42,768 bases of DNA from an uncultured Prevotellaceae bacterium. GTDB lineage: Bacteria; Bacteroidota; Bacteroidia; Bacteroidales; Bacteroidaceae. This document shows positions 17,054-31,654 of the stretch, one piece after another. Where the stretch lies: contig CACYKE010000027.1 in NCBI GenBank assembly GCA_902774925.1, forward strand, positions 1 to 42,768, written 5' to 3'. The position numbers and the translations under genes are program-made. The notes beneath the pieces were generated by a model. That model was given only the letters and a program-made list of their open reading frames with translations, searched no databases and was not told where the DNA came from. The first letter of the stretch is position 1; the number at the start of each line of letters is the position of its first letter.

Positions 17054-17115
17054 TCATAATGTATCATAAAATAGATTTTATTTCATATATTTGCAGACCA
17101 AAAGATACATTATGA
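17054..17115 (+). promoter_or_regulatory. Candidate HipB operator: paired inverted repeat around the promoter
   Basis: TCATAATGTATC at 17054-17065 is the exact reverse complement of GATACATTATGA at 17104-17115. The two half-sites bracket the -7 element and the second covers the hipB start codon. HipB is known to repress its own operon through palindromic sites; this pair fits autoregulation. Confidence 0.6.
17086..17093 (+). promoter_or_regulatory. -7 element of the hipBA promoter
   Basis: TATATTTG, followed by CAG, matching TAnnTTTG and lying 18 bases before the ATG at 17112. Confidence 0.65.
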
Positions 17116-17429
17116 CGAAATTTAGTAAATCAAACTGGTTGCCAATGAAGTTGGCCGAGAATCTTTCTATTGTAGGCGAGCAATTACGCTTGGCGCGTCT
17201 GCGTCGGGACCTAAGTATTGAGCAGGTTGCCGAAAGGGCGCAATGCAGCCGACTGACTGTTGCAAAGCTTGAAAAGGGCTTACCGACGGTATCTGTAGGC
17301 ATTTTATGCAGAATACTCTATGCGCTTCAATTAGGCGATGACATTTTGTTACTTGCACGTGATGACAAACTCGGACATGTCATCCAAGACATAGAGGTGA
17401 AGAACAAAAAAAGAGCATCGAAGAAATAG
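17112..17429 (+). CDS. hipB: HipB-like antitoxin, XRE-family regulator
   Basis: 105 residues from the ATG at 17112; an in-frame TTG at 17091 lies in the promoter and was rejected. The HTH is clear: LRLARLRRDLSIEQVAERAQCSRLTVAKLEKGLPTVSVGILCRILYAL at ~25-72. The C-terminus is Lys-rich (VKNKKRASKK). In HipBA systems this protein binds HipA and represses the operon. The gene ends 12 bp before hipA. Confidence 0.9.
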   Translation: MTKFSKSNWLPMKLAENLSIVGEQLRLARLRRDLSIEQVAERAQCSRLTVAKLEKGLPTVSVGILCRILYALQLGDDILLLARDDKLGHVIQDIEVKNKKRASKK

Positions 17430-17441
17430 TTTATCTGGGTT

Positions 17442-18710
17442 ATGGAAACACTTGAAGTGGTCGCCAGTTTTGACTGGTTAGAAAATGAAGAGACGATAGG
17501 CTATCTCAGTTATGACCAACTGGGAGGAAAAGATGTTTTCACCTTTGAATATACGAAGGAGTGGATAAAGAAGCATTCCGACATTATTCTAGGTGGAGAC
17601 TTACAACCTTACGCAGGTAAGCAACATACACAACCTGATGGCGAAATATTCGGCTGCTTTGCAGATTGCCTGCCAGACTTCTGGGGTCGTACGCTTATCG
17701 AACTGAAAGAGAGACAGACCAATAGCACAAAAGGAAGACTGACATACAACCTGTCAGATTGGGTATATCTTAAAGGCGTGGAAGATTCCTTGCGCATTGG
17801 AGGGTTCCGCTTTAAGGATATTGACACAGGGCTATACCTGAACGTATCGGACGATTTTCAGGTTCCACCAATATTAAGTTTAGAAATGCTTTTCGAAGCA
17901 GCAAAGAAAGTGGAGGAAAGCGAGTTCAAGAGTGAAGAACCGGACAACAGATGGCTTGAGCGGCTGCTCAAACCGGGAACCTCTGTCGGTGGTGCAAGAC
18001 CAAAGGCATGCGTTTCCGACGAGAACAGTCTTTATATAGCAAAATTTCCTTCAACCACAGATAGGTGGAATGATTGCAGATGGGAGTTTTTTGCCAACAA
18101 GATGGCAGAGCAGTGCGGTATTCATATTGCCACGACCAAACTGATTTCGCTCAGTTCAGGACATGACGTCTTTCTTTCAAAACGATTTGACCGGACACCC
18201 GACGGAAAACGTATACATATGGCTTCTGCACTGAACCTGCTTGGATTAACGCAGGAAGACACACATAAAAGATATTACGCATACCCTGAAATAGCCGATT
18301 TTATAGTATCAAATGGTACAGATGTCGAAAAGTCACTTCAGGAGCTGTATCGTCGCATAGCATACACTATTTGTATCGGTAATACAGATGACCATCTGAA
18401 AAATCATTCCTTTCTACTCACCAAGAAAGGATGGGAATTGTCACCTGTTTATGATATAAACCCTTCGGTCGGTCATACTCATAGCCTGCTCATTGATGGC
18501 GTGTCAAACGCATCAAGTCTTGACAACTTATTCAAGGCGCATAAGTTGTATAAGCTTGACGAAGAAACTGCTTTTGACATCATCAAAGATGTTACGCAGA
18601 CCATGAAGAATTGGAAAGATACTGCACGGGATTGCGGTATCAGCGAAAAGGATAAAGCATACGACGATTTTTCCCAAAGATTTACAGAGGGTGTGTCCTG
18701 GAGCATTTAG
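17442..18710 (+). CDS. hipA: HipA-family Ser/Thr kinase toxin
   Basis: 422 residues, usual full length for HipA. The N-subdomain (VASFDWLENEETIGYLSYD, FGCFADCLPDFWGR) is followed by the ATP-binding loop GTSVGGARPKA, the lysine strand SLYIAKFP, the catalytic loop IGNTDDHLKNHSFLL and the metal-binding YDINPS. HipA kinases phosphorylate aminoacyl-tRNA synthetases such as GltX and cause growth arrest; the substrate here is unknown. Catalytic residues look intact. Paired with hipB, it is a complete type II toxin-antitoxin module bracketed by two palindromic repeats. Confidence 0.92.
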   Translation: METLEVVASFDWLENEETIGYLSYDQLGGKDVFTFEYTKEWIKKHSDIILGGDLQPYAGKQHTQPDGEIFGCFADCLPDFWGRTLIELKERQTNSTKGRLTYNLSDWVYLKGVEDSLRIGGFRFKDIDTGLYLNVSDDFQVPPILSLEMLFEAAKKVEESEFKSEEPDNRWLERLLKPGTSVGGARPKACVSDENSLYIAKFPSTTDRWNDCRWEFFANKMAEQCGIHIATTKLISLSSGHDVFLSKRFDRTPDGKRIHMASALNLLGLTQEDTHKRYYAYPEIADFIVSNGTDVEKSLQELYRRIAYTICIGNTDDHLKNHSFLLTKKGWELSPVYDINPSVGHTHSLLIDGVSNASSLDNLFKAHKLYKLDEETAFDIIKDVTQTMKNWKDTARDCGISEKDKAYDDFSQRFTEGVSWSI

Positions 18711-18768: not shown

Positions 18769-19197
18769 CTATTTTGCAACAAAGACCACTCGGCGATTTT
18801 TCGCTCTTCCCTCTTCCGTGCTGTTGTCTGCAATGGGGGAGTATTGTCCTTTGCCAACAGCCGTCAGACGACTGCGCGAAATGCCCATTTCAACAAGTTT
18901 GTCGACAATGGCTTGAGCACGCTTTTCACTGAGCTTCTGATTGGAATCGGGAGTACCTGTCGAGTCGGTATGACCTTGAACCTCATAACGCAGTTCCGGA
19001 TTTTGATCCATCAGCATCTTGATACGGTTGATTTCAGTCATTGATTCCGACTTGATGACAGCCTTGTTTACGTCGAAGGTGATGTCGTAGGTCACGATAG
19101 TACGATAGGAATTGGTGTTAACGGCAGCTTTCTTTGGCTGGCAAGCAGTCAGTGTGAATAATGCTGCACAAAGTAATACAGAAACAAATAATTTCAT
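18769..19197 (-). CDS. OmpA-family peptidoglycan-binding lipoprotein
   Basis: 142 residues. Start taken at the ATG at 19197 rather than an upstream TTG. A lipoprotein signal ends in LFTLTAC. The mature part is one OmpA C-terminal domain: VTYDITFDVNKAVIKSES, YEVQGHTDSTGTPDSNQKLSEKRAQAIVDKL, LTAVGKGQYSPIADN and GRAKNRRVVFV. It tethers the outer membrane to peptidoglycan. It has its own promoter and is transcribed towards hipA. Confidence 0.92.
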   Translation of the reverse strand: MKLFVSVLLCAALFTLTACQPKKAAVNTNSYRTIVTYDITFDVNKAVIKSESMTEINRIKMLMDQNPELRYEVQGHTDSTGTPDSNQKLSEKRAQAIVDKLVEMGISRSRLTAVGKGQYSPIADNSTEEGRAKNRRVVFVAK

Positions 19198-19224
19198 AAG
19201 CAAATAAATTTATAGTTCGCGTGG

Positions 19225-19232
19225 CAAAAGTA
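19225..19232 (-). promoter_or_regulatory. -7 element for the OmpA-like gene
   Basis: Read on the minus strand: TACTTTTG, matching TAnnTTTG, 27 bases upstream of the ATG at 19197. Confidence 0.55.
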
Positions 19233-19339
19233 CGTAGAAAAATTGAGAAAACCATCAAGTTAAGGTGGTAAAATATAGAAAAAATCAAAAAAAACGTTAA
19301 TTCTGCCTTGCTTTGGCTATAACTTCATCAAAAATAATG

Positions 19340-19347
19340 TAATTTTG
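19340..19347 (+). promoter_or_regulatory. -7 element for the kinase/FHA operon
   Basis: TAATTTTG matches TAnnTTTG, 26 bases before the ATG at 19374. A TTTG at 19312-19315 is 24 bases upstream, slightly too far for the usual 19-21. All seven genes to 28536 are spaced -17 to +19 bp and no other clear promoter is seen, so this probably drives the operon. Confidence 0.5.
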
Positions 19348-19373
19348 ACCAAAATTATAAATATTATAGAAAA

Positions 19374-20867
19374 ATGGAATTAACTTCAGGACTATTATTT
19401 GCTGATAGATATAAACTAGTCAAACAGCTCGGAAGGGGAGGATTCGCAGAAGTTTGGTTAGCTGAGGACAATCTGACAGGTGTTCAGGTTGCTGTGAAGG
19501 TATATGCTCCAGGAACCGGTTTGGATGAGGATGGTATCAAGATTTTTACACAGGAATTCACTGTGGTGTTCGACATGAACCATACCAACCTGCTGCGTCC
19601 TACGCATTACGACTGCTACGAGCGCATGCCCTATCTCATCATGCCCCTCATCAAAAACGGTTCAGCCTTCAAGTATCTGACCGAGGGCGTGAATATCCCT
19701 GAGGAAGAAGCCTGGAAGATGTTACACGACGTGGCAGCAGGACTGGCCTATCTCCACGAGAAGAATCCGCCCCTGATTCATCAGGACATCAAGCCGGACA
19801 ACATCATGATAGGCGACGAAGGGCAATATCTGATTACCGACTTCGGCATCAGTGCCCGTGTCCGCAGTACGATACGTGGTGCCCAGGCTGCTGAGCAGAG
19901 CGGCGGTACGTTGGCCTATATGGGACCAGAGCGCTTCAGCAAGACCCCAAAGCCCATCATGGCCAGCGATGTATGGTCGCTCGGTGCTATGATGTATGAG
20001 CTGATGACCGGACAGCCTCCATTTGGCAATCATGGCGGCATGCTTCAGAAGAACGGTGCTGATATCCCCCTTATTGAAGAAGACTATTCGCAGGAGATAA
20101 AGGATATGGTCTATGCCTGTCTGGCCAAGGAGACTTGGGACAGACCGTCGGCCAAGAAGATTGAGGAACTTACTTACAATAAGATCCATGGTATCGTGGT
20201 TCCTGCAGAACCAGTAAAGGATAACGGTGAGGATGCTGATAAGAAGCAAAAGAGTACGCCTACCCCCGAACCCGTTACTCCCAAACCCGATACCCCCAAA
20301 ACCGGTGCCTCCAAGAAGATTAACAAGAATATCATCATCGGAGCTGTTGCCGCCATTGTCGTCCTAATCGGTATCGTTGCGATGTGTAGTGGTGGTGGCG
20401 ACAGTGAGGAAGTACCCCCCGTAGCCGTAGAGGAAGTCGTTCCTGTCATCAACTATGATTCGCTGGCACAGGTCAGCATTCAGGAAGGTATGGCGCTGCT
20501 GGAACAGGCCGACACCTTTATGACCAACCACGAGGAAGATAAGTTCGACTCTAAATATAATAAGGTGGAAGATACCTATATCAGCGCCTTGAAGAAGTTT
20601 GAGGAGGCTTTGGTCAATAAGGACAGCCTTTCGGCAGAGATTTCCAGCAATGCCCTCATCCAGAAGAGTACGGCAGCAGGAAAGCTGTTTAATATCTATA
20701 AGGAACTGAGTGAGATAGCCTCCGGTCTGAAGGAAGCAGGCCTTGCTGATGGTGCCGCAGAATCTGAGGCGCGTGCAGAAGCCATCAAGCCATATATTCC
20801 TGACTTGATTAATAACGAAAACCAAGATACTAACGAAAACCAAGACAATAATGAACAGATTCCTTAA
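19374..20867 (+). CDS. Membrane Ser/Thr protein kinase 1 (HQD type)
   Basis: 497 residues. Kinase domain ~12-270: Gly loop LGRGGFAEV, VAVK (Lys42), catalytic loop HQDIKPDN (136-143), DFG (156-158), GTLAYMGPERFS. The usual HRD Arg is Gln. A Pro/Thr/Lys linker (TPTPEPVTPKPDTPKT) leads to one TM helix (~319-338) and an outer domain of ~155 residues, helical and TPR-like (SIQEGMALLEQADTF, SALKKFEEALVNKD, GKLFNIYKELSEIA). The plan is that of PknB/PpkA-type receptor kinases: cytoplasmic kinase, periplasmic sensor. It overlaps the next gene by 17 bases and heads a seven-gene phospho-signalling operon. Confidence 0.93.
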   Translation: MELTSGLLFADRYKLVKQLGRGGFAEVWLAEDNLTGVQVAVKVYAPGTGLDEDGIKIFTQEFTVVFDMNHTNLLRPTHYDCYERMPYLIMPLIKNGSAFKYLTEGVNIPEEEAWKMLHDVAAGLAYLHEKNPPLIHQDIKPDNIMIGDEGQYLITDFGISARVRSTIRGAQAAEQSGGTLAYMGPERFSKTPKPIMASDVWSLGAMMYELMTGQPPFGNHGGMLQKNGADIPLIEEDYSQEIKDMVYACLAKETWDRPSAKKIEELTYNKIHGIVVPAEPVKDNGEDADKKQKSTPTPEPVTPKPDTPKTGASKKINKNIIIGAVAAIVVLIGIVAMCSGGGDSEEVPPVAVEEVVPVINYDSLAQVSIQEGMALLEQADTFMTNHEEDKFDSKYNKVEDTYISALKKFEEALVNKDSLSAEISSNALIQKSTAAGKLFNIYKELSEIASGLKEAGLADGAAESEARAEAIKPYIPDLINNENQDTNENQDNNEQIP

Positions 20868-21717
20868 AATACTGACGGTAATCCTGTTGATGACTCTGAC
20901 CACGGTGCATACCTATGCCCAGAGTGCCAGTGATGCTTACAACAAGGGAGTTGCCTTGATGAACAAAGGCGACTATCAGGGTGCCATCGCCAGTTTTAAA
21001 GCCTCGATGGCTATTAACAAGAGTGCTGCTAACGTCAAGAAATGTAATGCACAGATTTCCAAGTGTAACCGTCTGGCCAAGAAAAAGACTACTGACAGGA
21101 AAGACGAACCTAAGAAAACCACTCAGAAGACCTTGGTTGTCAGTGCTAAGAATGTTGGTTTCGAGGCAGCTGGCGGCGAGAGGATTATTGGCGTCTTGAC
21201 TCAGCCGGAGAGTAATGACTGGATAGCCAATGTGGCCTCTGAGCACGAGAGCTGGTGTAAGTTGTCCAAATCGATGAACGGTAAGGAGCTACAGATAGAA
21301 TGCCTGCCCTCAAATAGTACTATTTCAAGATATACGGGCATTACCGTCATCTATGACCAGGAGACCCAATTCATCCAACTCACACAAAAAGGAAAGGACG
21401 CCGAAATCACAGCCCACCCCAATGATGTGAAGTTCAAACTCAAAGGCGGTACCGAGAAAGTGGCCATCAGTTGCAACAGTGATACACTGTATGCAGACAA
21501 CAAAAACTGGCAGTTGTCCAAACGTCCGGACTGGTGTGAAGTATATGTAGGCAGTAGTAATGAGATCACTGTGAAGGTTAAAGAAGTTAAGAAAGGTGAT
21601 CCTATCTACGAGTCAGGCCGTTCTGGCGATATCATTCTGAAAAGTCAGAATCAGGAGTGCATCATTCGAGTGGATCAGAGAAAACGTAATATAATTAATT
21701 CTATTTTAAAACACTAA
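20851..21717 (+). CDS. Secreted TPR-like / BACON-domain protein
   Basis: 288 residues. Signal peptide 1-23 (ending HTYAQ), a short TPR-like unit (AYNKGVALMNKGDYQGAIASFKASMAIN), a Lys/Thr-rich linker and two BACON-like beta domains: ~94-180 (VSAKNVGFEAAGGERIIGV, WCKLSKS, FIQLTQKGKD) and ~185-280 (KFKLKGGTEKVAISCN, WCEVYVGSSNEITVKV, CIIRVDQ). BACON domains are common in Bacteroidota surface proteins and bind ligands or act as spacers. Since it overlaps the kinase gene and is exported, it may bind the kinase's outer domain; this is inference. Confidence 0.8.
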   Translation: MNRFLKILTVILLMTLTTVHTYAQSASDAYNKGVALMNKGDYQGAIASFKASMAINKSAANVKKCNAQISKCNRLAKKKTTDRKDEPKKTTQKTLVVSAKNVGFEAAGGERIIGVLTQPESNDWIANVASEHESWCKLSKSMNGKELQIECLPSNSTISRYTGITVIYDQETQFIQLTQKGKDAEITAHPNDVKFKLKGGTEKVAISCNSDTLYADNKNWQLSKRPDWCEVYVGSSNEITVKVKEVKKGDPIYESGRSGDIILKSQNQECIIRVDQRKRNIINSILKH

Positions 21718-21736
21718 CAACTAAAAACAAAAAGCT

Positions 21737-22630
21737 ATGAGATGCAATAATTGTGGATGGGACAATGCTCCCGGTTGCAGTTCTTGCGTGAAGTGCGGCC
21801 ACCCGTTACAAGCAGACAATGGTGGGTACAACAACAACCCCTATCAAGGAGTAAACGTGCCCAATTACAATCAAGGCGGAGAACCGCAGCCACGCCCTAC
21901 TGTCATCGGCACTCAGGCAGCTGACATACCAGCTCCGCGACCGACAAGAATTGTCAATGGTCCTATGATGCAGGACCAGCAGTTGAAGGCTACCGTTGTG
22001 CAAAGTCCGAAAAGCTGTCCTCATTGTGGCTATCCCGTCATGGGCGATTTCAGCAGTTGCCCGAACTGTGGAGCCAGTATCGCGCCAGCTCCCAGACCGA
22101 CAACCATCCAGCGTCCAGACGGTCAGCCGGAAACGCCGGCAGCCCCCTTGGCAGGCACAGTTGCGACTGGCAAGAAATCCTTATTGAATGAGCTGGGTAT
22201 CGATGAAACGGTGAAGTGCGACAAGTGTGGTGCAGAAGTATCAATCGACTTTACATTCTGTCCAAAATGTGGTGAAAGGATACACCTGCCGACAGTACGT
22301 GCCATCCGTCACAAGCCTACGGCAGCTCCTGAACCTCCAAAGCCGAAGTGCCGTCTGACCATCATCCCTGAGGAAGACGAGCAGGAAGTTCCTGTACCCA
22401 ACGAGTATGAGGGAGCATCTATCATCTTAACCAGAGATAATACAGAGGCAAATAACCGTACTATCACTTCGAAGGAACAGGCGGAGCTGATTTGTGAAGA
22501 CGGTAAATGGTTTGTGTTGAACAAGAGCGAATTAAGTTCCACTTATTTAGAGGCAAACAGGAAACTGGAAATCCAACAGGGCGATGTCATCGTGATGGGT
22601 GACAGAAGATTCAAGTTTGAAATTGAATAA
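21737..22630 (+). CDS. Triple zinc-ribbon protein with degenerate C-terminal FHA-like domain
   Basis: 297 residues, cytosolic. Ribbon 1: Cys3, 6, 17, 20; ribbon 2: Cys94, 97, 108, 111; ribbon 3: Cys161, 164, 175, 178. Between ribbons lie repeated PRPT-x-I motifs (Thr55, Thr70, Thr122) that look like kinase substrate sites. The C-terminus (~227-297) has FHA-like strands and QGDVIVMGDRRFKFE, but the phospho-binding residues are altered: SKEQAEL instead of SRxHAxI, and LSSTYLE instead of SNGTYVN. It is probably a phosphorylated adaptor that recruits the FHA proteins encoded next. Confidence 0.78.
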   Translation: MRCNNCGWDNAPGCSSCVKCGHPLQADNGGYNNNPYQGVNVPNYNQGGEPQPRPTVIGTQAADIPAPRPTRIVNGPMMQDQQLKATVVQSPKSCPHCGYPVMGDFSSCPNCGASIAPAPRPTTIQRPDGQPETPAAPLAGTVATGKKSLLNELGIDETVKCDKCGAEVSIDFTFCPKCGERIHLPTVRAIRHKPTAAPEPPKPKCRLTIIPEEDEQEVPVPNEYEGASIILTRDNTEANNRTITSKEQAELICEDGKWFVLNKSELSSTYLEANRKLEIQQGDVIVMGDRRFKFEIE

Positions 22631-22647
22631 CAACAATTTTAGTCCGC

Positions 22648-23943
22648 GTGAGCACCTATCAAGTCATAGACAGATGCGACTTTAGGCCAGGAGACGTCAT
22701 TGACAACAGATATAGTGTCAGGAAGGCCCTTGGAGAGGGTTCCTTTGGCATCGTATATCTCGTTGAAGACGGTCGGGGCGGGAAATATGCCTTGAAGCTC
22801 CTTAGATTGTGGGAAGTGCCAGCCGAGATTCGCCAACCTTTAATGGAGCGCTTCGAGATGGAATTCAACACAGGCCGCATTGATTGTGACAATTTGGTTC
22901 GTTCACTGGACTATGGCACTGTTGGTGGCAATCCTTTCATTGTGATGGAGTTCTGTCCAGGCGGTGACCTTGAGCCCTTGCTTGGCAAGCCAGACGGCAA
23001 CACGCCGCGTATCTGTCAAGACATTCTCGTCGGACTCAATGCCTTGCACGACAGGGGAAAGGTGCATCGGGACCTGAAACCTGAGAATGTGCTCTTCAAA
23101 CAGAATGGCAAGGCCGCTCTGACGGATTTCGGAATAGCCGGCGACCGTACCCACCGTATGACGCAGCGTAATATCTTTGGCAAGCCCAATCAGGTATTCG
23201 GAACCTACGCCTACATGCCCCCGGAGCAGGCCATGAGAGCCCGTGGAGGTGCTACCGTGCTGCCGACGACCGACATATTCTCTTTCGGCGTGTTGGCTTT
23301 CCAGTTGCTCACTAACCAATTGCCTTTTGGAACGCTGGAGACGCACAATGACCTTGCAGAATACCAGAAACGCGGAAAAGACGGAATATGGAACCGCGAT
23401 GCCCTTCGCCACGTCAACAACAGCCAGCAATGGATACAGTTGATTGAAGGCTGTCTGAACCCAGATTTCAGACAACGGTTCCAAAGCGTCCACGACGTGT
23501 TGAGGTTGCTGCCGCAGTCGCTGGGAGGAGGTTACCAGCCACAGCCTGTCAGGCTCGCTCAGTCGTATACACCGCAACAGTATGCCAGTGGCTATCAGCT
23601 GCGAATACTGCAAGGTGAGGAATACGGTAAAGTGTACCAGCTGACTCAGTTAGCCAGCCAAGGTCGTCGTATTCTGACTATTGGTCGTCAACTGGGCAAC
23701 AGTATCTTTATCAAATCAGACTTCAGCGACTTCTTATCGCGTTTCCATTGCACGTTAGAACTGGCCACCAACGGTCATTGGGCCATTCGTGATGGTCAGT
23801 GGCGCAACGATATGCGACAGTGGGTAAACTCCAGCAATGGAACCTATGTAAACTCGAAACCCGTCAATGAAAACGGCTACTTTCTCAAAGCAGGTGACAT
23901 CATCGCCATTGGCGACGTTACACTAAGATTTGAAAATTACTAA
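22648..23943 (+). CDS. Soluble Ser/Thr kinase 2 with C-terminal FHA domain
   Basis: 431 residues starting at GTG 22648; the frame has no nearer ATG and the start MSTYQVIDRCDFRPGDVID fits. Kinase ~18-290: LGEGSFGIV, YALKLL, VHRDLKPEN (HRD intact), TDFGIAG, GTYAYMPPEQ. From ~320 an FHA domain with intact binding residues: ILTIGRQLGN, LSRFHCTLEL, SSNGTYVNSKPV, AGDIIAIGDVTLRF. No TM segment, so it acts in the cytosol. The FHA may dock it onto phosphothreonines made by the membrane kinases or on itself. 17 bp after the zinc-ribbon gene and 19 bp before the next. Confidence 0.92.
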   Translation: MSTYQVIDRCDFRPGDVIDNRYSVRKALGEGSFGIVYLVEDGRGGKYALKLLRLWEVPAEIRQPLMERFEMEFNTGRIDCDNLVRSLDYGTVGGNPFIVMEFCPGGDLEPLLGKPDGNTPRICQDILVGLNALHDRGKVHRDLKPENVLFKQNGKAALTDFGIAGDRTHRMTQRNIFGKPNQVFGTYAYMPPEQAMRARGGATVLPTTDIFSFGVLAFQLLTNQLPFGTLETHNDLAEYQKRGKDGIWNRDALRHVNNSQQWIQLIEGCLNPDFRQRFQSVHDVLRLLPQSLGGGYQPQPVRLAQSYTPQQYASGYQLRILQGEEYGKVYQLTQLASQGRRILTIGRQLGNSIFIKSDFSDFLSRFHCTLELATNGHWAIRDGQWRNDMRQWVNSSNGTYVNSKPVNENGYFLKAGDIIAIGDVTLRFENY

Positions 23944-23962
23944 CCTTTTAATTATAAACATT

Positions 23963-25819
23963 ATGGATAATCAAAGTTACAAGCGCACAGTGGCTGGCTC
24001 TGTTGGAGCTGGCGTAGGTGCAATCTTCAATGGTTCAGGACGTACTTATTACATCCTCGAACACAAGACCAGTTCAAAGTATCATAGCGCTGGTGAGTCA
24101 CAGAAAATCATCATCGACCAGATTGAGATTGGTCGCGATGCTTCTTGTCAGGTTCGCTATGACGAGTCTTTCGATACAGTAAGCCGCAAGCATGCCGCCA
24201 TCGTTCGCGACGGCAACAACTGGCAACTGATCCACCTCTCTTCTTCTAACCCGACGTTGGTGAACGGCCGTCCCGTTCAGGGTTCCTATTATCTCCAGAC
24301 CGGTGACGAGATCCAGTTATCCGTCAATGGTCCACGCCTTGGCTTCATCCAGCCGCAGGGCAAGCAGGGTCTCACGTCAAGCATCAAGCTCACTGAGCGT
24401 ATGAACCTGTTCCGCGAGCAGGCTCTCCGTCCTTATCGCCGTGCCATCTGGGCTTTGGCAACACTGCTGCTGCTTGTCGTCCTCGGCTTTGGCGCCTGGA
24501 ACTACAAACTGCATCTCGACAATCAGGCTCTCCGTCAGGAGATGGCTATGTATGCAGCTCAGGTAGACTCTCTCGGCATGAAGAAAATTCAACTTGAGAA
24601 TCAGGAACAACAGTTGACCGCTCAATTGGCAAGTGATCCGAACAACCAGGCATTGAAGCAGCAGCTCGGTCAGGTTCAGCAGGAACGCGTCCGTGTTGTC
24701 TATGCCTACAATGCTGCATCCCAGAAACTGGCATCGACCAAGTCTAAGTTGGCAGAATACGGTTATGACGACGAGGATGAGGACGAGAGCACTGGCACAG
24801 GCTCAACAGCTACGGCCGACATTGCGGCAGCTACAGGCGGAAATGCCGGACTGGGACAGGACGGACCTGTCACTGACGGTGAGGAGCGATGGGACAACTC
24901 TGAGCAAGAGGTTGTTGCAGCAGAAGGAACAGCCGTCAATCCTGGTAACAAGAATGACTTCGTCGACAAGTCTAACCCCACCATCCAGGAGTCAGCCAAG
25001 AATTCTGCCGGTGCTTCAGACAACATCGTAAAATACTATAACGACATCTACAGTCTGAAGGTAAAGCGCATTACGCTTGAGCGTGGTGGCAACTCGTATG
25101 ACCCAGGTATCGCCACAAGCCAGCTCGTAGTCGGTACAGGTTTCGTTGTTGGTGGTAAGTTCATTACAGCACGTTCTAATCTGCAGCCTTGGGTATATCG
25201 CAATGTCTATAATGACGACTGGCGCCGTCTGCTCGCAGAGTATGTAGCAGCCGGATTCCATGTCATCATCGACTTTGAGGCTTACTCTACGCGCGGTTCC
25301 GGTCATCCACTCCGTTTCAGCAACACCCAGTTCGACCTGGCTTCCTTGGAAGCATACGATGGCAAGGAAATTGTTGAGATTCGCAAGGACGTTATCAAGA
25401 GAATCAAGGGCTGGGGCATTGACATTGCCTATAAGAAGAGTACTCGTGAGAAGTTCGTCGTAACGTACTATACCGATGGTTCCCACAACGCTGCTTCTCT
25501 GGCACTTGGAGCCCCTGGCGGTCTGCCTGTTGACATTCCGACAGCTCAGAGCCTGAAGGGTAGCGAGGAAGTGGTTATCGCCGGATTCTCTGGAAACACC
25601 AATATCCAGTCGCTGTCAAGCTATGTGAAGTACTTCACCAGCCGCACATCGCGTCTGGCATCTCGCTTCATCACACTACAGGATGCCTCTGCCAACTGGG
25701 GCTTCACCGGTTCACCGGCTTTCTTCAAGGAGAGCAATGGCACTTATCGTGTAGTAGGTGTCAACGTGGGTAACTTTGGTGGCGAGGTTCGTGTTGTGCC
25801 TATTCACAGAGTAAGGTAA
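23963..25819 (+). CDS. FHA - TM - coiled coil - trypsin-like (inactive-looking) protein
   Basis: 618 residues from the ATG at 23963. A canonical cytoplasmic FHA at ~45-120 (IEIGRDASC, TVSRKHAAIV, NPTLVNGRPV) is followed by one TM helix (161-178), a coiled coil (~183-265), an acidic/Gly linker and a trypsin-like beta fold ~370-618: VVGTGFVVGGKFITARSNL, GWGIDIAY and GFTGSPAFFKESNGTYRVVGV. The catalytic His is absent (ARSN), Ser is Thr582, and only Asp487 fits, so it is probably a pseudoprotease binding something in the periplasm. It would link an outer ligand to inner phosphothreonine recognition. Central to the operon and its most unusual member. Confidence 0.85.
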   Translation: MDNQSYKRTVAGSVGAGVGAIFNGSGRTYYILEHKTSSKYHSAGESQKIIIDQIEIGRDASCQVRYDESFDTVSRKHAAIVRDGNNWQLIHLSSSNPTLVNGRPVQGSYYLQTGDEIQLSVNGPRLGFIQPQGKQGLTSSIKLTERMNLFREQALRPYRRAIWALATLLLLVVLGFGAWNYKLHLDNQALRQEMAMYAAQVDSLGMKKIQLENQEQQLTAQLASDPNNQALKQQLGQVQQERVRVVYAYNAASQKLASTKSKLAEYGYDDEDEDESTGTGSTATADIAAATGGNAGLGQDGPVTDGEERWDNSEQEVVAAEGTAVNPGNKNDFVDKSNPTIQESAKNSAGASDNIVKYYNDIYSLKVKRITLERGGNSYDPGIATSQLVVGTGFVVGGKFITARSNLQPWVYRNVYNDDWRRLLAEYVAAGFHVIIDFEAYSTRGSGHPLRFSNTQFDLASLEAYDGKEIVEIRKDVIKRIKGWGIDIAYKKSTREKFVVTYYTDGSHNAASLALGAPGGLPVDIPTAQSLKGSEEVVIAGFSGNTNIQSLSSYVKYFTSRTSRLASRFITLQDASANWGFTGSPAFFKESNGTYRVVGVNVGNFGGEVRVVPIHRVR

Positions 25820-25838
25820 GTTTATATAGTTTATCTAA

Positions 25839-26909
25839 ATGTCAGAAGTAAAAATCAAACTTGCTGCAGGCACTAATGTCGGACTTCTCCGACAAAACAA
25901 CGAAGACAACTTCATTGTTTCCAGTGACCTTGGCACTTCTGAATGGCTCATTCCCCAGGTCGGTACTGAAATCGACCTGGGGGAATTAGGAGCCTTACTC
26001 GTCGTTGCCGACGGTATGGGAGGAAGCAATGCAGGCGAAGTGGCTTCGGCCATTGCCATTGAGACCGTCCAAAACAAATTCACCCCGGAGTTGCTCGCTG
26101 AGGTGGTTGACAACGATAAGGCTGTTCAGGAATATATGAAAGCCGTTGTCAAGGAAGCCGACCTGAACATCCTCAACCAGAGTAAAGAGGATGCCACGAA
26201 ACAGGGGATGGGTACAACTATTGTGATGGCATGGATTCTTGGCAACAAGGCTTATGTCTGCTGGTGTGGTGACAGCCGCTGCTATGTGCTCAACAGGCGT
26301 AAAGGTCTCGTTCAGTTGTCGAAAGACCACTCCTATGTTCAGGAACTGGTTGACAAGGGTGAACTATCCGCAGAGTTGATGCACGACCATCCTCTTTCGA
26401 ATATTATCACCCGTTGCTTAGGCGATGTGGACAATCGTGCTAACCCCGAAACACGTATTTACCAGTTACATAACGGTGATGTCTTCATGCTCTGCAGCGA
26501 TGGTCTTTGCGGCCTGTGTCACGACGACCAGATACTCGATGTGATGATAAAGTTCCACGACGACCCCGTAGAGTGTAAGAAAGAGCTTATCTCCGCTGCT
26601 CTCGCCGCTGGCGGCTATGACAACGTGACAGTAGCCATTGCCAGCATCCAAACCGACGAAGACGACGACGTGTATGACGAGGAAGAGGAAACAGCAGCCA
26701 CTGGCGAGGAAAACCTTTCCACCACCATTCGCTGTGAGACCATCGGTCGCCGTTCCCACAAACTGAGAAACCTGGTGTTGCTATTCGTGATTTTAGTCAT
26801 TGCGGTTGTGACATACGCTTATTTCACCAAGGACAGCAACCCGACGAGTCAGTCGATTATAACTACCATCACGCTTTATTGGGAAAAGCTTAGCAGTTAT
26901 ATTAAGTAG
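25839..26909 (+). CDS. Membrane-anchored PP2C-type Ser/Thr phosphatase
   Basis: 356 residues. The PPM/PP2C domain has all metal-binding signatures: RQNNEDNF (21-23), VADGMGGSNAGE (58-62), GMGTTIVMA, CGDSRCYVL, CSDGLCGL (Asp221) and GGYDNVTV (Asp261). An acidic linker leads to a C-terminal TM helix (~310-329) and a short tail, so the catalytic part is cytoplasmic and tethered to the membrane, beside the kinases. It would remove phosphates placed by the three kinases of the operon. 19 bp after the FHA/TM gene, 7 bp before kinase 3. Confidence 0.93.
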   Translation: MSEVKIKLAAGTNVGLLRQNNEDNFIVSSDLGTSEWLIPQVGTEIDLGELGALLVVADGMGGSNAGEVASAIAIETVQNKFTPELLAEVVDNDKAVQEYMKAVVKEADLNILNQSKEDATKQGMGTTIVMAWILGNKAYVCWCGDSRCYVLNRRKGLVQLSKDHSYVQELVDKGELSAELMHDHPLSNIITRCLGDVDNRANPETRIYQLHNGDVFMLCSDGLCGLCHDDQILDVMIKFHDDPVECKKELISAALAAGGYDNVTVAIASIQTDEDDDVYDEEEETAATGEENLSTTIRCETIGRRSHKLRNLVLLFVILVIAVVTYAYFTKDSNPTSQSIITTITLYWEKLSSYIK

Positions 26910-26916
26910 ACATCAA

Positions 26917-28536
26917 ATGACATTCAAAGAAGGCAATATCATTGCTGAGCATTACGAACTCAAAAGACAACTTGGTCAGGGTAGTTTTGGAGATGTTTGG
27001 TTGGCACACAACCTGCTGGCTGACATTGATGTGGCCATTAAGTTCTATGGAACACTCGACCAGAAAGGCATCGAGGAGTTCCGTAACGAGTTCAAGATAG
27101 CCTACAAACTCCATCATCCCAACCTGCTCAATATCAACCATTTCGATGTCTTTGAGAACTGTCCCTATCTTGTGATGCCCTATTGCGAGAACGGCTCTGT
27201 CAGCCATCACATAGGTCAGATGCCTGAGTCCGAGATATGGAAATTCGTTCTTGATGTCAGCTGTGGTCTTACCTTCCTCCACACCCAGAAACCGCCCGTT
27301 GTCCATCAGGACATCAAACCCGACAACATTCTCATAACCAGCGACGGACGCTATGTCATTTCCGACTTTGGCATCAGTCGCAGTTTCCGAACACAGCTGA
27401 GTAGTACCAAAAACAAGGTGAATAGTTCTGGCACCTTGGCCTATATGGGCCCTGAGCGATTCTCGGAACAGCCGATGGTCGTGCTGGCCAGCGACATCTG
27501 GGCCTTTGGCATGACGCTCTATGAAGCCATTACAGGCACTGTTCTTTGGGAGGGAATGGGTGGCTGTGTTCAACTCAACGGAGCCCGTATCCCCGTTATC
27601 AGTCATACCACCCCAGAACTGGCCCGACTTGTTAGTGCTTGTCTTGCTGCAGAGACATGGAATCGCCCGACGGCACAACAGATTTACGACTATGCTGCTG
27701 CATACATACAGCACAAGCCGCTTCCGCAGCTCATTCATGGCCCTCAAGAACTGCCAAAGCCTGTTACCCCATCCCCGGCGCCATCGCCAGCACCAATACC
27801 ATCGCCCACCCCTCATGTTAAGCTTCGGCAACAGAGTTTGAGGACATCAGACTCCTCAACCAGTTCGTTTACTAAGCGTATTCTTGTTGCTGCTATCGCG
27901 CTGATAGGAGTCGTTCTGGTTGGTGGTGGTATCGTATCGTTATACAATTATTTCAGCGAAGAGCGAGATTTTGTGTCCTGCAAGACCCCTCAGGATTTTG
28001 AGCAGTTCATTAAGGATCATCCCTCATCTTCCTATGTTAATACGGCTCGCAAACGTATCAGGGCCCTCACACCCGCATCCACGCCTACATCCGCCCCTGT
28101 CCAACAAGTCTCTGTTCATGAGCCTGTGAAGGAAAAGGTGCAGATTGTCACCCAGCCTGCCGCTCCTGCAACCCAACGGACGCCAGTCGACGACCGCATC
28201 TATATCCAGCCATCTGAGAAAAACAGTAATACGACAACTACCGCCTCGTCAACAAGTCAGCACGACGACGATGCCATATTCTATTCCTGTCAGACAATTG
28301 ACGATTACCAGTCATACTTGAACACCTTCCCTCAGGGAAGTCACCGTGCCCAAGCACAAACAGCTATTAATAGTCTGCTGAACCGCAACGACAACCTCGT
28401 CAACGACAACGAACCCGTCGTCAGAGAGGAGCAGAGCAATACTTCCTTCAGAGTCAACCGCATCGGTCCTCCACGCTCTCAGCGTCCACGTCCAAATGGC
28501 CCTCCTCCCAGAGGGTATCGTCACCGAAGACCATAG
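26917..28536 (+). CDS. Membrane Ser/Thr protein kinase 3 (HQD type)
   Basis: 539 residues. Kinase ~13-262: LGQGSFGDV, VAIK (Lys42), VHQDIKPDN (130-137), SDFGISR, GTLAYMGPERFS. The HQD and the activation-loop end match kinase 1, so the two are paralogues. A Pro/Ser-rich linker (~281-300), one TM helix (~321-343) and an outer part follow. The outer part has two copies of a ~33-residue helical motif, DFVSCKTPQDFEQFIKDHP and IFYSCQTIDDYQSYLNTFP, each ending in an A(R/Q)xxI helix, separated by Thr/Pro-rich sequence, then a Pro/Arg-rich tail. The outer domain differs from that of kinase 1, implying a different stimulus. Last gene of the operon. Confidence 0.92.
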   Translation: MTFKEGNIIAEHYELKRQLGQGSFGDVWLAHNLLADIDVAIKFYGTLDQKGIEEFRNEFKIAYKLHHPNLLNINHFDVFENCPYLVMPYCENGSVSHHIGQMPESEIWKFVLDVSCGLTFLHTQKPPVVHQDIKPDNILITSDGRYVISDFGISRSFRTQLSSTKNKVNSSGTLAYMGPERFSEQPMVVLASDIWAFGMTLYEAITGTVLWEGMGGCVQLNGARIPVISHTTPELARLVSACLAAETWNRPTAQQIYDYAAAYIQHKPLPQLIHGPQELPKPVTPSPAPSPAPIPSPTPHVKLRQQSLRTSDSSTSSFTKRILVAAIALIGVVLVGGGIVSLYNYFSEERDFVSCKTPQDFEQFIKDHPSSSYVNTARKRIRALTPASTPTSAPVQQVSVHEPVKEKVQIVTQPAAPATQRTPVDDRIYIQPSEKNSNTTTTASSTSQHDDDAIFYSCQTIDDYQSYLNTFPQGSHRAQAQTAINSLLNRNDNLVNDNEPVVREEQSNTSFRVNRIGPPRSQRPRPNGPPPRGYRHRRP

Positions 28537-28560
28537 CAAAAGGCAGCATCGCTTAACCCA

Positions 28561-28640
28561 GGAAAAGATACTTTCGTTCGAAAACACAAAGAAAAATGAA
28601 TTTTCCTTTGGTGTTTTGCTCACTTATTCGTATCTTTTTC
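28561..28640 (+). repeat. Duplicated promoter segment, copy 1 (decayed)
   Basis: It aligns without gaps to 28721-28800 at a fixed offset of 160 bp. It contains the inverted repeat CAAAGAAAA...TTTTCCTTTG and a -33 TTTG at 28607, but the -7 reads TATCTTTT instead of TATCTTTG. Probably a former promoter. Confidence 0.75.
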
Positions 28641-28720
28641 CAAAGAAAAAATAGGCTGCATCTCAGAAAAATCCAAATTTATTTGGTTTTTCGTTCGATT
28701 TGCACTATCTTTTCGCTTCG

Positions 28721-28800
28721 CGAGAAGATATTTTCGCTCGAAAGAACAAAGAAAAATGAATTTTCCTTTGGTTCTTTGCTCACTTATTCGTATCTTTGCA
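28721..28800 (+). repeat. Duplicated promoter segment, copy 2 (active form)
   Basis: The second copy of the ~80-bp duplication, ending exactly at the working promoter of the C10 protease gene. It shares long runs with copy 1, including AAAGAAAAATGAATTTTCC. The whole gap 28537-28828 holds only these two copies and AT-rich spacer. Confidence 0.75.
28767..28798 (+). promoter_or_regulatory. Consensus promoter of the C10 protease gene
   Basis: -33 TTTG at 28767-28770, 20-base spacer, -7 TATCTTTG at 28791-28798: an exact match to the Bacteroidota TTTG-N19-21-TAnnTTTG pattern. It lies 30 bases before the ATG at 28829. Confidence 0.8.
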
Positions 28801-28828
28801 GGCAACTATCAAACCTATTATTAAGAAA

Positions 28829-31654
28829 ATGAAAAGATCTATCCTACTTTTTCTGTCGGTTATGATGACTGTCATCATGACGGCAGGCGACGTGACGCCC
28901 CAGCAGGCGCTGCAACAGGCTCAGAAATTCCTGCAGCAGACACCGTCGGGCATGAAGAGGAGTCAGGCTGAGGTTCCCCAGCTGAAGATGGCGGGACGCG
29001 TCAGCGGACTCTATGTGTTTAACGCAGAAGCCAACCAGGGCTATGTCATCGTGTCGAACGACGACCGCACAACGCCCATTCTGGGCTATAGCGAGACGGG
29101 CACCCTCGACCTGGATAACATGCCTTGCAACATGCGTGCATGGCTGCAGGGTTATGCCGACGAGATTGCGTGGCTGAATGAGCACAACTATCAGCCCGCA
29201 GCGTCACAGGCTCCCCATCGCACTGCCTCAGCAGTCAAGGAACCCATTGCCCCGCTGATGGCAACTAAATGGAATCAGGACTATCCGTATAACGCATTTT
29301 GTCCGGAGTATTCGAGTGGAAAGAAATGCGCTACAGGTTGTGTAGCTACCGCTATGGCGCAGTGCATGTATTTTACTGAGATGCGTGTTGGTTCTACCAC
29401 CACCACTATTACTTCCAAAATTCCTGGGTATACGAATCCTAGATATGGACTGACCATTAACGCTATTCCTGCCGGTACTACCATCAAATGGAGTGACATG
29501 ATTGCTGACTACAGCAAAGGTTACACTTCCGAAGAGGCCACAGCCGTAGCCTACTTGATGTTATACTGCGGTACTTCGGTTCAAATGGACTATGGCCCTG
29601 AATCATCTTCGAATGGTGATAAAGTAGCTAATGCCCTGAAATCTTATTTTGACTATAACACCGGGACGGTAACCTTCATTGACCGTAACGACTACACTTA
29701 TAGTGACTGGGTGGATATCATGTATTATGAACTGAGTCAGGGACGTCCCGTATGTTATGGCGGTCAGTCATCGGGTGGCGGTCACGAATTTGTATGTGAC
29801 GGCTACCAGAATGAAGACTATTTCCATATCAACTGGGGCTGGGGTGGCATGAGTGATAACTACTTTAAACTCTCTGCGCTCGACTCTGACCAGCAAGGTA
29901 TAGGTGGCAGCACTTCCACTGATGGCTTCAATTATGGTCAGGATGCAGTCATCGGTATTCAGAAAGCAGGAGAAACAGGGACATTACCACCTTTGAACAT
30001 TAATAACCCTTCTTACACCATTAATAGTCTCACACTCGATAAATCCAGCATTCTGGGTGGTGAGTCGGTAGAAGCCTCCTTCGAAATAACTGTTAAACCT
30101 GGTTACGACTTTGATCGCGATTTGCATTTATATGATTTGAATGGCAAAGGTTTTGTGGCCGGAAAGACTTTCTATGCAAAAGCAGGTACCACAAAGGTCT
30201 GTACATTTACATTTACTCCTGAAAACGAGACACATGTTTATAACCTTACCATTTTTTATCCTTCGGGAGGTTATTATTATTATTGTCCAGGCAGTTTCGC
30301 TAATCAAACGCTTTCGGTGACGGCAACAAGTGCTAATCCCACTACAGACAATATTACGCTGACAAGTTCACTTACTGTTGAGAATTCTGAAAATGCGGGA
30401 GGGGTGAACTACAATCTATACGGAAAAGAGGTTAATGGCGTGTTGAGAGTAAACAACCCAAATGCAAGCTATGATTATTCAGGAGTATTCCAATTCGACG
30501 TCTACATCTATGGAAACTATTCATCTCCTGTTTGGCGTTATGTCGATAATGTACTCATCCCTGCAAATGGCTACATCGACATTCCTGTGGCATTTAGTGG
30601 CATTCTGGGGAAAAAATACGAATTTACTTTCATCTATGATAAGAATGGCGGTTCGAGTGGTTGGATAGAGGCAGGTTACTACACCATCCAACCAGGCATT
30701 ACGGCCTATAAATCCGACGGCACCTACACTGTTGTTAAGTCAACTACCAACTACGAAGTTCCAGCCGATGCTGTCGCAGTGGATATGTCGGGAGCCAGTG
30801 TGACTAATGTCACCAAGAACAGCAATCCCAATACACTTTATATCCTGAAAAAGAGCGACAGTGTGCCCGGAAGTCTGAACAACGTTGTCACATTAAACAA
30901 CGATGGCAGCTATTCTAGTAAGGATATTACGCTTACAGATGGTTACGACTTCTATTCTCCCGTTGATTTCACGGCTACGGATATTGAGTTCACCTATAGC
31001 AACGACCGCTGGGCCGATGGCACCAATGGTTGGAATACCATCATGCTACCCTTCGATGTAACTTCAGTCACGGCTAATGGAACAGATATCGACTGGTTCC
31101 ACAGCGGCAGTGATACAGGCAAGCAGTTCTGGTTGAAGAAATTTACAGGCGACGATACAAGTGCCCCCAAGGTCTATTTCGATTACACAGATGAGATGAA
31201 GGCCAACACTCCGTATATCATCGCTCTGCCCGGCAACCACTGGGGTACAGAATACGACCTAAGCGGCAAGACCATCAAGTTCATTGGTGCAAATGCAGAG
31301 GTAAAGAAGAGTACATCTGGTGTAGTCACTGGCGGCAACTACCGCTTCGTGGGTGACACCAAGGCTGTAAACACAGAAAAAATCTACTGTATCAATGCAG
31401 CTGGTAACATGTTTGAACTGAAAGCCACTGGTGGCAGTCCTGCTTTCCGTCCGTTCTTCAAGGCCGACATGTTTGACCGCACAGTGACCAGTCTCGGCAT
31501 CGGTAATGGTGGCGAAACGACGGGAATTACAACGTTGAACATTGAACGTGAAACGTTGAACGACGATAGTTGGTATGACCTGCAAGGCCGTCGCGTCGAG
31601 AATCCCACCAAGGGTGTGTATATCAAGAATGGCCGCAAGGTCGTGATTAAGTGA
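28829..31654 (+). CDS. C10 (streptopain/interpain-like) secreted cysteine protease
   Basis: 941 residues from the ATG at 28829. Signal peptide ~1-20, inhibitory pro-region (Spi-like: TPQQALQQAQKFLQQ, GYVIVSNDDRTTPILGYSE), then the catalytic C10 domain: KWNQDYPYNAFCP, KCATGCVATAMAQ (nucleophile Cys), GGGHEFVCDGY (catalytic His) and FHINWGWGG. The large C-terminal part consists of beta domains and ends in WYDLQGRRVENPTKGVYIKNGRKVVIK, a terminal module common on exported Prevotella proteins and possibly a secretion or anchoring signal. Just before that module an AACGTTG-type repeat is translated in frame (TLNIERETLN). Homologues (SpeB, interpain A) degrade host proteins. Confidence 0.92.
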   Translation: MKRSILLFLSVMMTVIMTAGDVTPQQALQQAQKFLQQTPSGMKRSQAEVPQLKMAGRVSGLYVFNAEANQGYVIVSNDDRTTPILGYSETGTLDLDNMPCNMRAWLQGYADEIAWLNEHNYQPAASQAPHRTASAVKEPIAPLMATKWNQDYPYNAFCPEYSSGKKCATGCVATAMAQCMYFTEMRVGSTTTTITSKIPGYTNPRYGLTINAIPAGTTIKWSDMIADYSKGYTSEEATAVAYLMLYCGTSVQMDYGPESSSNGDKVANALKSYFDYNTGTVTFIDRNDYTYSDWVDIMYYELSQGRPVCYGGQSSGGGHEFVCDGYQNEDYFHINWGWGGMSDNYFKLSALDSDQQGIGGSTSTDGFNYGQDAVIGIQKAGETGTLPPLNINNPSYTINSLTLDKSSILGGESVEASFEITVKPGYDFDRDLHLYDLNGKGFVAGKTFYAKAGTTKVCTFTFTPENETHVYNLTIFYPSGGYYYYCPGSFANQTLSVTATSANPTTDNITLTSSLTVENSENAGGVNYNLYGKEVNGVLRVNNPNASYDYSGVFQFDVYIYGNYSSPVWRYVDNVLIPANGYIDIPVAFSGILGKKYEFTFIYDKNGGSSGWIEAGYYTIQPGITAYKSDGTYTVVKSTTNYEVPADAVAVDMSGASVTNVTKNSNPNTLYILKKSDSVPGSLNNVVTLNNDGSYSSKDITLTDGYDFYSPVDFTATDIEFTYSNDRWADGTNGWNTIMLPFDVTSVTANGTDIDWFHSGSDTGKQFWLKKFTGDDTSAPKVYFDYTDEMKANTPYIIALPGNHWGTEYDLSGKTIKFIGANAEVKKSTSGVVTGGNYRFVGDTKAVNTEKIYCINAAGNMFELKATGGSPAFRPFFKADMFDRTVTSLGIGNGGETTGITTLNIERETLNDDSWYDLQGRRVENPTKGVYIKNGRKVVIK
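31531..31561 (+). repeat. Short AACGTTG-type tandem repeat inside the C10 protease gene
   Basis: Runs of AACGTTG/AACATTG/AACGTGA translated in frame between the last beta domain and the C-terminal module. The same 7-base unit occurs at 34889-34926 in the radical SAM gene. Confidence 0.7.

Follow-up and report, generated by a model that had tools for sequence, protein, structure and literature searches.

Positions 1 to 42,768 of contig CACYKE010000027.1, from an uncultured Prevotellaceae bacterium (assembly GCA_902774925.1) whose nearest named relatives are Prevotella, form the window analyzed here. Within it, seven tightly spaced open reading frames (ORFs), all on the + strand between 19374 and 28536, make up the operon that is our subject: it encodes Ser/Thr kinases, FHA proteins, a PP2C phosphatase, an exported BACON protein and a periplasmic protease fold stripped of two catalytic residues. 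The genes, their principal domains and the sites that flank them are as follows.

19374..20867, + strand: K1, a receptor Ser/Thr kinase (kinase domain, transmembrane (TM) helix at residues 320-338, outer domain; HQD, non-RD), by Pfam and hydropathy
20851..21717, + strand: TPR/BACON protein, exported, its signal-peptide-like start judged by eye (BACON 29.7 bits against a cut-off of 25; TPR under cut-off)
21737..22630, + strand: zinc-ribbon protein with a Thr-motif linker and a C-terminal FHA fold
22346..22627, + strand: C-terminal domain of that protein with the FHA fold (residues about 204-297), phospho-binding residues kept in part
22648..23943, + strand: KFHA, a soluble kinase-FHA protein with an HRD kinase
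23963..25819 (from a TTG at 23930 in the longest ORF), + strand: membrane FHA protein, comprising FHA domain, TM helix, coiled coil and, in the periplasm, an HtrA/DegS-fold domain that lacks the catalytic His and Ser
25010..25816, + strand: pseudoprotease domain of that protein, residues 361-629 of the long ORF, of the allelic type I described below
25839..26909, + strand: PP2C phosphatase, with a single TM helix at residues 312-330 and a short tail in the periplasm
26917..28536, + strand: K2, a receptor Ser/Thr kinase (TM helix 322-340, outer domain; HQD, non-RD)
19312..19347, + strand: Bacteroidetes-type promoter-like site TTTG-N24-TAATTTTG 5′ of the operon, the sole + strand match before 28767
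28706..28730, + strand: terminator-like hairpin of 11 pairs with a T tail, 3′ of K2, the sole + strand site in 19200-28800

Seven genes and their domains

The initial annotation of this DNA had proposed a seven-gene phospho-signalling unit, and all seven ORFs do lie at 19374-28536, with gaps of -17, +19, +17, -14, +19 and +7 bases. The -14 rests on the TTG start (23930) of the membrane FHA protein and becomes +19 with the ATG at 23963, to which the start is equivalent in 15 of 19 aligned relatives. The promoter-like pattern, whose consensus we take to be that of Bacteroidetes-type promoters, both for the site at 19312-19347 and for the next one on the + strand (28767-28798, preceding a C10 peptidase gene), matches four times in the window against 1.17 expected, a count that 5 of 100 shuffles reached.

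Pfam bears out the three kinases, the tethered PP2C and the BACON protein that had been proposed. Pkinase domains score 157.6, 132.0 and 150.7 bits in K1, KFHA and K2, respectively, and make up three of the five Pkinase matches in the bacterium's own assembly, one of which falls under the cut-off; FHA domains exceed the Pfam cut-off in KFHA and the membrane FHA protein (50.4 and 59.0 bits), and PP2C and the zinc ribbons reach 61.4 and 54.5 bits. The catalytic motifs of the kinases are present, in the form HQD in K1 and K2 and HRD in KFHA, and the PP2C retains its metal-site motifs; HRD is the mark of RD kinases, HQD that of non-RD kinases, and the metal-site motifs belong to the active site of PP2C phosphatases. 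Hydropathy places a single TM helix in each of K1, the membrane FHA protein, PP2C and K2, and none in the zinc-ribbon protein or KFHA.

Two proteins deserve closer description. The zinc-ribbon protein had been labelled an adaptor with threonine motifs, and such motifs are strong in the linker throughout the window clade, but the label needs amending, as the C-terminus adopts an FHA fold whose nearest structures are OdhI/GarA (best E 1.3e-4; TM-score on target 0.65) and in which Arg233 and Ser245 are invariant (18/18). Within the PDB sequences the best profile match to this protein is ArnA, a weak one (E 0.004) that covers only the zinc finger and linker (profile positions 2-89).

The second is the membrane FHA protein, whose periplasmic part takes a trypsin-like HtrA/DegS fold for which the Pfam scan returned neither a protease nor a PDZ match. 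The catalytic His and Ser are gone in 20 of 20 rows of the close set, window included, so that the earlier term pseudo-trypsin was correct and may be made more precise as an HtrA/DegS fold minus these two residues. DegS itself is a membrane-anchored periplasmic stress-sensor protease; the membrane FHA protein shares with it the single TM helix and the periplasmic HtrA-type fold, and differs from it by a cytoplasmic FHA domain, by the missing PDZ match and by the loss of His and Ser in the window clade.

Conservation, live and dead proteases, and a proposed exchanged cassette

Conservation was assessed on 18 loci (L013-L030) in GTDB genome contigs, found using the membrane FHA protein and belonging mostly to Prevotella metagenome-assembled genomes. 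All seven genes occur in the same order and on the same strand in 16 of them, and the order is thus conserved beyond chance; of the two exceptions, L017 ends at a contig edge with its last five genes in view, and L030 lacks the BACON gene and has a last kinase closer to K1. The initial annotation had held that an order found in no other genome would speak against it; instead, writers, readers, eraser and exported parts recur together as one unit across genomes. A third receptor kinase follows downstream in 12 of the 18 loci, and near the end of the unit 12 loci carry an exported protein family, the one scanned member of which has WG repeats. A search of 60 relatives with the membrane FHA protein, at 1e-3, matched 6, the weakest of which (G028, G045) were discarded as operon relatives because they lead to different clusters (L066, L067). 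More distant relatives retain the zinc-ribbon, KFHA, FHA-protease and PP2C genes, in seven cases with an upstream kinase and a BACON-like gene (L048, L059, L117, L124-L127) and in five with ExbB-like and ExbD-like genes (L056, L057, L064, L075, L076). An ExbD-like partner elsewhere in the bacterium's own assembly was sought and gave no match. The genomes of L013-L030 turn up again in loci L090-L097 and L110-L116 (L091 with identical scores), as does G032 in L098, and these repeats were kept out of the counts. Two genomes, G1048 (L118, L124) and G1196 (L121, L125), each hold two divergent copies of the operon.

The wider sample adds a contrast in the protease domain itself. Both His and Ser are kept in 19 of 38 loci with a full domain, the other 19 being dead; this set includes 13 loci that are the window and its close set, and excludes L055, whose domain is truncated. 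Outside the window clade, 19 of 21 sampled loci retain the pair. Dead domains fall mostly into one clade (17 rows; Shimodaira-Hasegawa-like approximate likelihood ratio test, SH-aLRT, 98), with L050 and L058 standing separately. The live loci adjoin, in 17 of 19 cases, a gene for an exported solo protein of about 300 residues (L119 was read by eye; L075 and L076 are without it), as against 1 of 19 dead loci (L058), and the window clade lacks the gene. On the KFHA tree the live or dead state changes three times, of which the starred branches force one; L064 is absent from this tree, its kinase being split in two frames, and has both the protease residues and the solo gene. As the starred branches yield a single pair, the coupling of live protease and solo gene is suggestive and falls short of significance. 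The idea that the solo protein is itself a relative of the protease domain found no support in profile comparison (probability 15), a PW motif alone being common to the two.

Within the close set the two halves of the membrane FHA protein differ in their divergence. The cytoplasmic half keeps an identity to the window of 0.80-0.95 across all 19 relatives, whereas the periplasmic half falls into three allelic types, with identities of 0.89-0.95 (type I, n=7), 0.41-0.46 (type II, n=10) and 0.34 (type III, n=2). Comparison with L021, the closest relative on a tree of the other operon parts, in bins of 300 bases gives a DNA identity of 0.83 as far as 24473, 0.44-0.56 over 24474-25673 and 0.66-0.77 to about 26570, which delimits one further feature.

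24450..26909, + strand: candidate exchanged cassette, comprising the periplasmic half of the membrane FHA protein and PP2C; left edge at the identity drop against L021, right edge approximate

Other traits go with the type. All 10 type II loci have, between PP2C and K2, a small gene for a lipoprotein with four CxxCxG motifs, which none of the 8 type I loci has there and which is lacking in the window; the type III loci (L030, L065) have a similar lipoprotein gene placed before PP2C; and the PP2C tail contains a Trp in all 7 type I proteins and in none of the 10 of type II. On a combined tree of KFHA, the zinc-ribbon protein, PP2C and the FHA half (so that PP2C is itself included), the type changes five times, with the starred branches forcing three (type I) or four (type II) changes; shuffled type labels give a mean of 6.7, and equally few changes in 17 of 200 trials. 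Trees of single parts, which served for change counts alone, require one change for PP2C, two for K2, three for the FHA half and four to five for KFHA, the zinc-ribbon protein, BACON and K1. Because the tree of PP2C is likewise divided by type, the coupling of lipoprotein and type can be accounted for by a single contiguous tract; there are three independent pairs for it (p 0.25; with the type label entered for both traits, this is a count of pairs). On these sequence patterns, the simplest reading would be a contiguous cassette swapped by recombination.

A trans-envelope reading and its rivals

None of the named systems tested matches the operon in full. One of them is tied to the type VI secretion system (T6SS), whose threonine-phosphorylation pathway in Pseudomonas aeruginosa consists of PpkA-PppA-Fha with TagQRST (PMC12607579). 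As that source portrays it, the two share a membrane kinase, a PP2C and an FHA protein in one locus together with envelope parts, and differ in that the operon has three kinases, a zinc-ribbon/FHA protein and an FHA-DegS-fold fusion, and no TagQRST-like genes were seen in it. The operon would on this account be such a pathway, its kinase, PP2C and FHA proteins licensing the assembly of a T6SSiii. The initial annotation had seen no secretion gene here and had held that membership of a T6SS cluster at comparable loci would tell against its reading, and the latter point is where its case proved mixed. In g37, a genus of the same family, a zinc-ribbon/FHA protein, a kinase-FHA protein, another kinase and a WG protein stand at the end of a T6SSiii cluster with ClpV-, TssC-, TssD-, VgrG- and TssK-type genes (TssE, TssF and TssG in these clusters being guesses from place and size), and three of the four matching g37 genomes have the kinase-FHA gene and TssC on one contig, 12-13 kb apart, whereas in the fourth genome it sits on a contig of 4.7 kb. 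The opposite end of the cluster, in G254 and G072, carries an FHA protein, an FHA-trypsin with His and Ser motifs, a kinase and a WG protein, and G254 includes a PP2C and further kinases as well. On a midpoint-rooted kinase tree the g37 kinase-FHA joins that of the window (22 rows, 99). Part of the kit can therefore serve a T6SS, and for the sake of these clusters the T6SS account stays among the rivals.

The linkage in g37 does not, however, make the window operon a T6SS part. The g37 version has the zinc-ribbon/FHA and kinase-FHA pair in common with the window and not the whole kit, its receptor kinases coming from another clade of the tree. The bacterium's own assembly, 94% complete, which leaves a small doubt, has no match to PF17642 (TssD), PF17541 (TssC) or PF05591, and on the first two of these negatives a place in a T6SS was rejected for the window operon; the third carries no weight, since PF05591 matched none of 40 genomes searched, including the 12 T6SSiii genomes in which TssC and TssD were both found. 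Among the 18 genomes of L013-L030, 7 have TssC and TssD and 11 have neither (the completeness of those genomes is not stated), and the T6SSiii stretches of G363, G457, G459 and G466, four of the eight positive genomes outside g37, are without these regulators, the two loci of G363 lying 16.6 kb apart on opposite strands. We accordingly regard the T6SS account of the operon as quite improbable.

The g37 clusters are of interest in their own right. In G254 (L070 and L060), G072 (L068 and L061) and G226 (L062) the T6SSiii cluster has kinases, FHA proteins, an FHA-trypsin with intact motifs and WG-repeat proteins around it, possibly a phospho-regulated T6SS of Bacteroidota; in the main text of a survey of Bacteroidales T6SS (PMC4714493) a term search for kinase, FHA, forkhead and phosphatase gave no occurrence. 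L067 8703-19501 (G045), in another family of the order, holds a cluster of another kind, with FHA-like proteins, PP2C and kinases, the last of which fall with the T6SS-linked receptor kinases on the tree (support 91, unstarred).

Regulation of cell-envelope growth, in the manner of the actinobacterial pknA-pknB-pstP-fhaA-fhaB locus, is another account, to which the operon lends itself by its part types: as described for that locus, receptor kinases, a tethered PP2C and FHA proteins stand together (PMC6554272), and the nearest structures to the zinc-ribbon FHA fold, OdhI/GarA, point the same way. What sets the operon apart, against that published description, is an exported BACON protein and an FHA-tethered protease fold, with no PASTA match (Pfam, E 0.05), no rodA and no pbpA; the highest score of its kinases with the model NF033483 is 175.6 bits, where the cut-off is 450. 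KFHA is moreover so rare in the genome samples (figures below) that the operon is not a housekeeping growth system, and we hold a role in growth control to be unlikely. A defence or toxin-antitoxin module against phages, of the KKP (kinase-kinase-phosphatase) or MADS kind, would suit both this rarity and the existence of two cassette types. The KKP module of Pf prophages, in the account given by PMC11341870, sets one cold-shock-domain kinase and one FHA kinase beside a PP2C, and the operon resembles it in combining Ser/Thr kinases and PP2C with an FHA domain on one kinase; it departs from it in having membrane and exported parts, another gene order and no cold-shock-domain kinase. The kinases match the mad6 and PD-T4-6 models strongly but generically, and reach only 129.5, 130.8 and 138.9 bits against the cut-off of 460 for NCBIfam MADS6. 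Envelope parts fit poorly with KKP or MADS defence, KFHA has no plasmid match at E 1e-40, and viral contigs give seven loci with kinase-domain matches alone (best 33% over residues 10-241; 45% over 43 residues), a collection of phage records not having been searched. Defence thus appears a distant prospect, and an origin from a plasmid or phage, considered on the same searches, was set aside.

Two further comparisons concern single likenesses. ArnA of Sulfolobus joins a zinc finger to an FHA domain (PMC6509490), partners the vWA protein ArnB, acts on archaellum expression and belongs to a network with the kinases ArnC/ArnD and PP2A; the zinc-ribbon protein likewise has a zinc-binding N-terminus, a linker and a C-terminal FHA fold within a kinase/phosphatase network, although ArnA is archaeal and its vWA partner has no counterpart in the operon. 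The absence of a vWA gene, already claimed in the initial annotation, holds across the seven proteins and three scanned neighbors (Pfam). It also separates the operon from the TerY-P triad, which consists of vWA, PP2C and kinase and which the operon otherwise recalls in its kinase, PP2C and zinc ribbons.

We therefore return to the reading we favor, as probable though well short of assured, namely that the operon is a stand-alone trans-envelope phosphothreonine signalling system. A writer-reader-eraser scheme can be modelled on the T6SS pathway and the pstP locus, in which the parts, their order, the fold, the residue loss and the topology by hydropathy are observations, and in which we infer every phosphorylation and binding step. 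The periplasmic outer domains of K1 and K2 would sense an envelope signal, perhaps together with the exported BACON protein, and the two receptor kinases would activate the soluble RD kinase KFHA, as its domains and what is known of HRD kinases suggest, its FHA domain docking on phosphorylated partners. The marks written and read may be the conserved Thr motifs of the zinc-ribbon/FHA linker, and perhaps others in the tail region of PP2C. The membrane FHA protein would bind a phospho-mark inside the cell and relay its state to the outer DegS-fold domain, which in the window clade, with His and Ser lost, would act as sensor or scaffold; the tethered PP2C, whose active-site residues are in place, would reset the system, and the output is probably an envelope function.

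Several observations weigh against this reading. The structure model of the membrane FHA protein is weak (mean predicted local distance difference test score, pLDDT, 57), with ten-residue blocks in the protease-fold region at 29-83, mostly 60-83. Phosphothreonine-binding FHA domains follow the pattern Arg, Ser-Arg, His, and in the FHA of the zinc-ribbon protein Lys and Gln replace the canonical Arg and His, respectively, so that, judged by these residues, it might not bind phosphothreonine; of 17 distant relatives of this protein, only two have the Thr motifs of its linker. KFHA is rare at E 1e-60, with the own genome counted: 19 of 398 genomes in the genus, 17 of 399 in the family (four of these being the g37 T6SS-linked version) and 4 of 395 in the phylum (one of them that version). 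No output gene adjoins the operon in all loci. Finally, the terminator-like scan of the region gave 4 sites against a shuffle mean of 8.5 and that for sigma-70-like sites 14 against 10.7, and because these totals compare poorly with shuffles both kinds of site are weak evidence. The earlier interpretation as a whole has thus stood as to the unit, its order and the lack of vWA and T6SS markers, and has given way as to the zinc-ribbon label and, in part, the link to T6SS.

Only tentatively would we go further. The operon possibly represents an undescribed class of trans-envelope signalling in Bacteroidota, in which the inner phosphothreonine state gates an FHA-anchored periplasmic DegS-like protease or pseudoprotease within one polypeptide; a possibly older form would adjoin the exported partner, sometimes with an ExbB/ExbD-like proton channel, while in the window clade the protease would have turned sensor, its periplasmic half being swapped as a cassette with PP2C and the small lipoprotein. 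No description of such a Bacteroidota operon came up in the literature searched (openly licensed PMC papers). A compact operon with writers, readers, an eraser and a dead protease offers a tractable test of how cytoplasmic phosphorylation is tied to the periplasm, and the live and dead versions in relatives form a natural series for what a pseudoprotease does.

Neighboring genes

Just upstream of the operon, 17091-18710 holds a small helix-turn-helix-like protein (by eye) and a HipA-like protein (Pfam), by their look a HipBA-type pair, followed on the opposite strand by an OmpA-type gene (18769-19203) with relatives upstream of the operon in 8 of the 18 related loci. Behind the operon, at 28796-31654 and with a promoter-like site of its own, lies the gene for a C10 (streptopain-family) peptidase with a Spi inhibitor propeptide; it is not operon-adjacent in the 18 related loci, four of which (L024, L028, L029, L030) have partial matches some kilobases off. 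Candidate outputs may be sought among the very large proteins beside divergent operons, at L050 14645-19546, L065 14195-19381 and L058 13568-19348, of 1633, 1728 and at least 1926 residues; two of the three were scanned, and one showed a type IX secretion system sorting-tail match under the cut-off. Near the operon of L014, on the - strand at 13849-14850, a protein combines, by eye, a zinc ribbon, a TM helix, BACON-like stretches and CxxCxG, the motifs of several operon genes.

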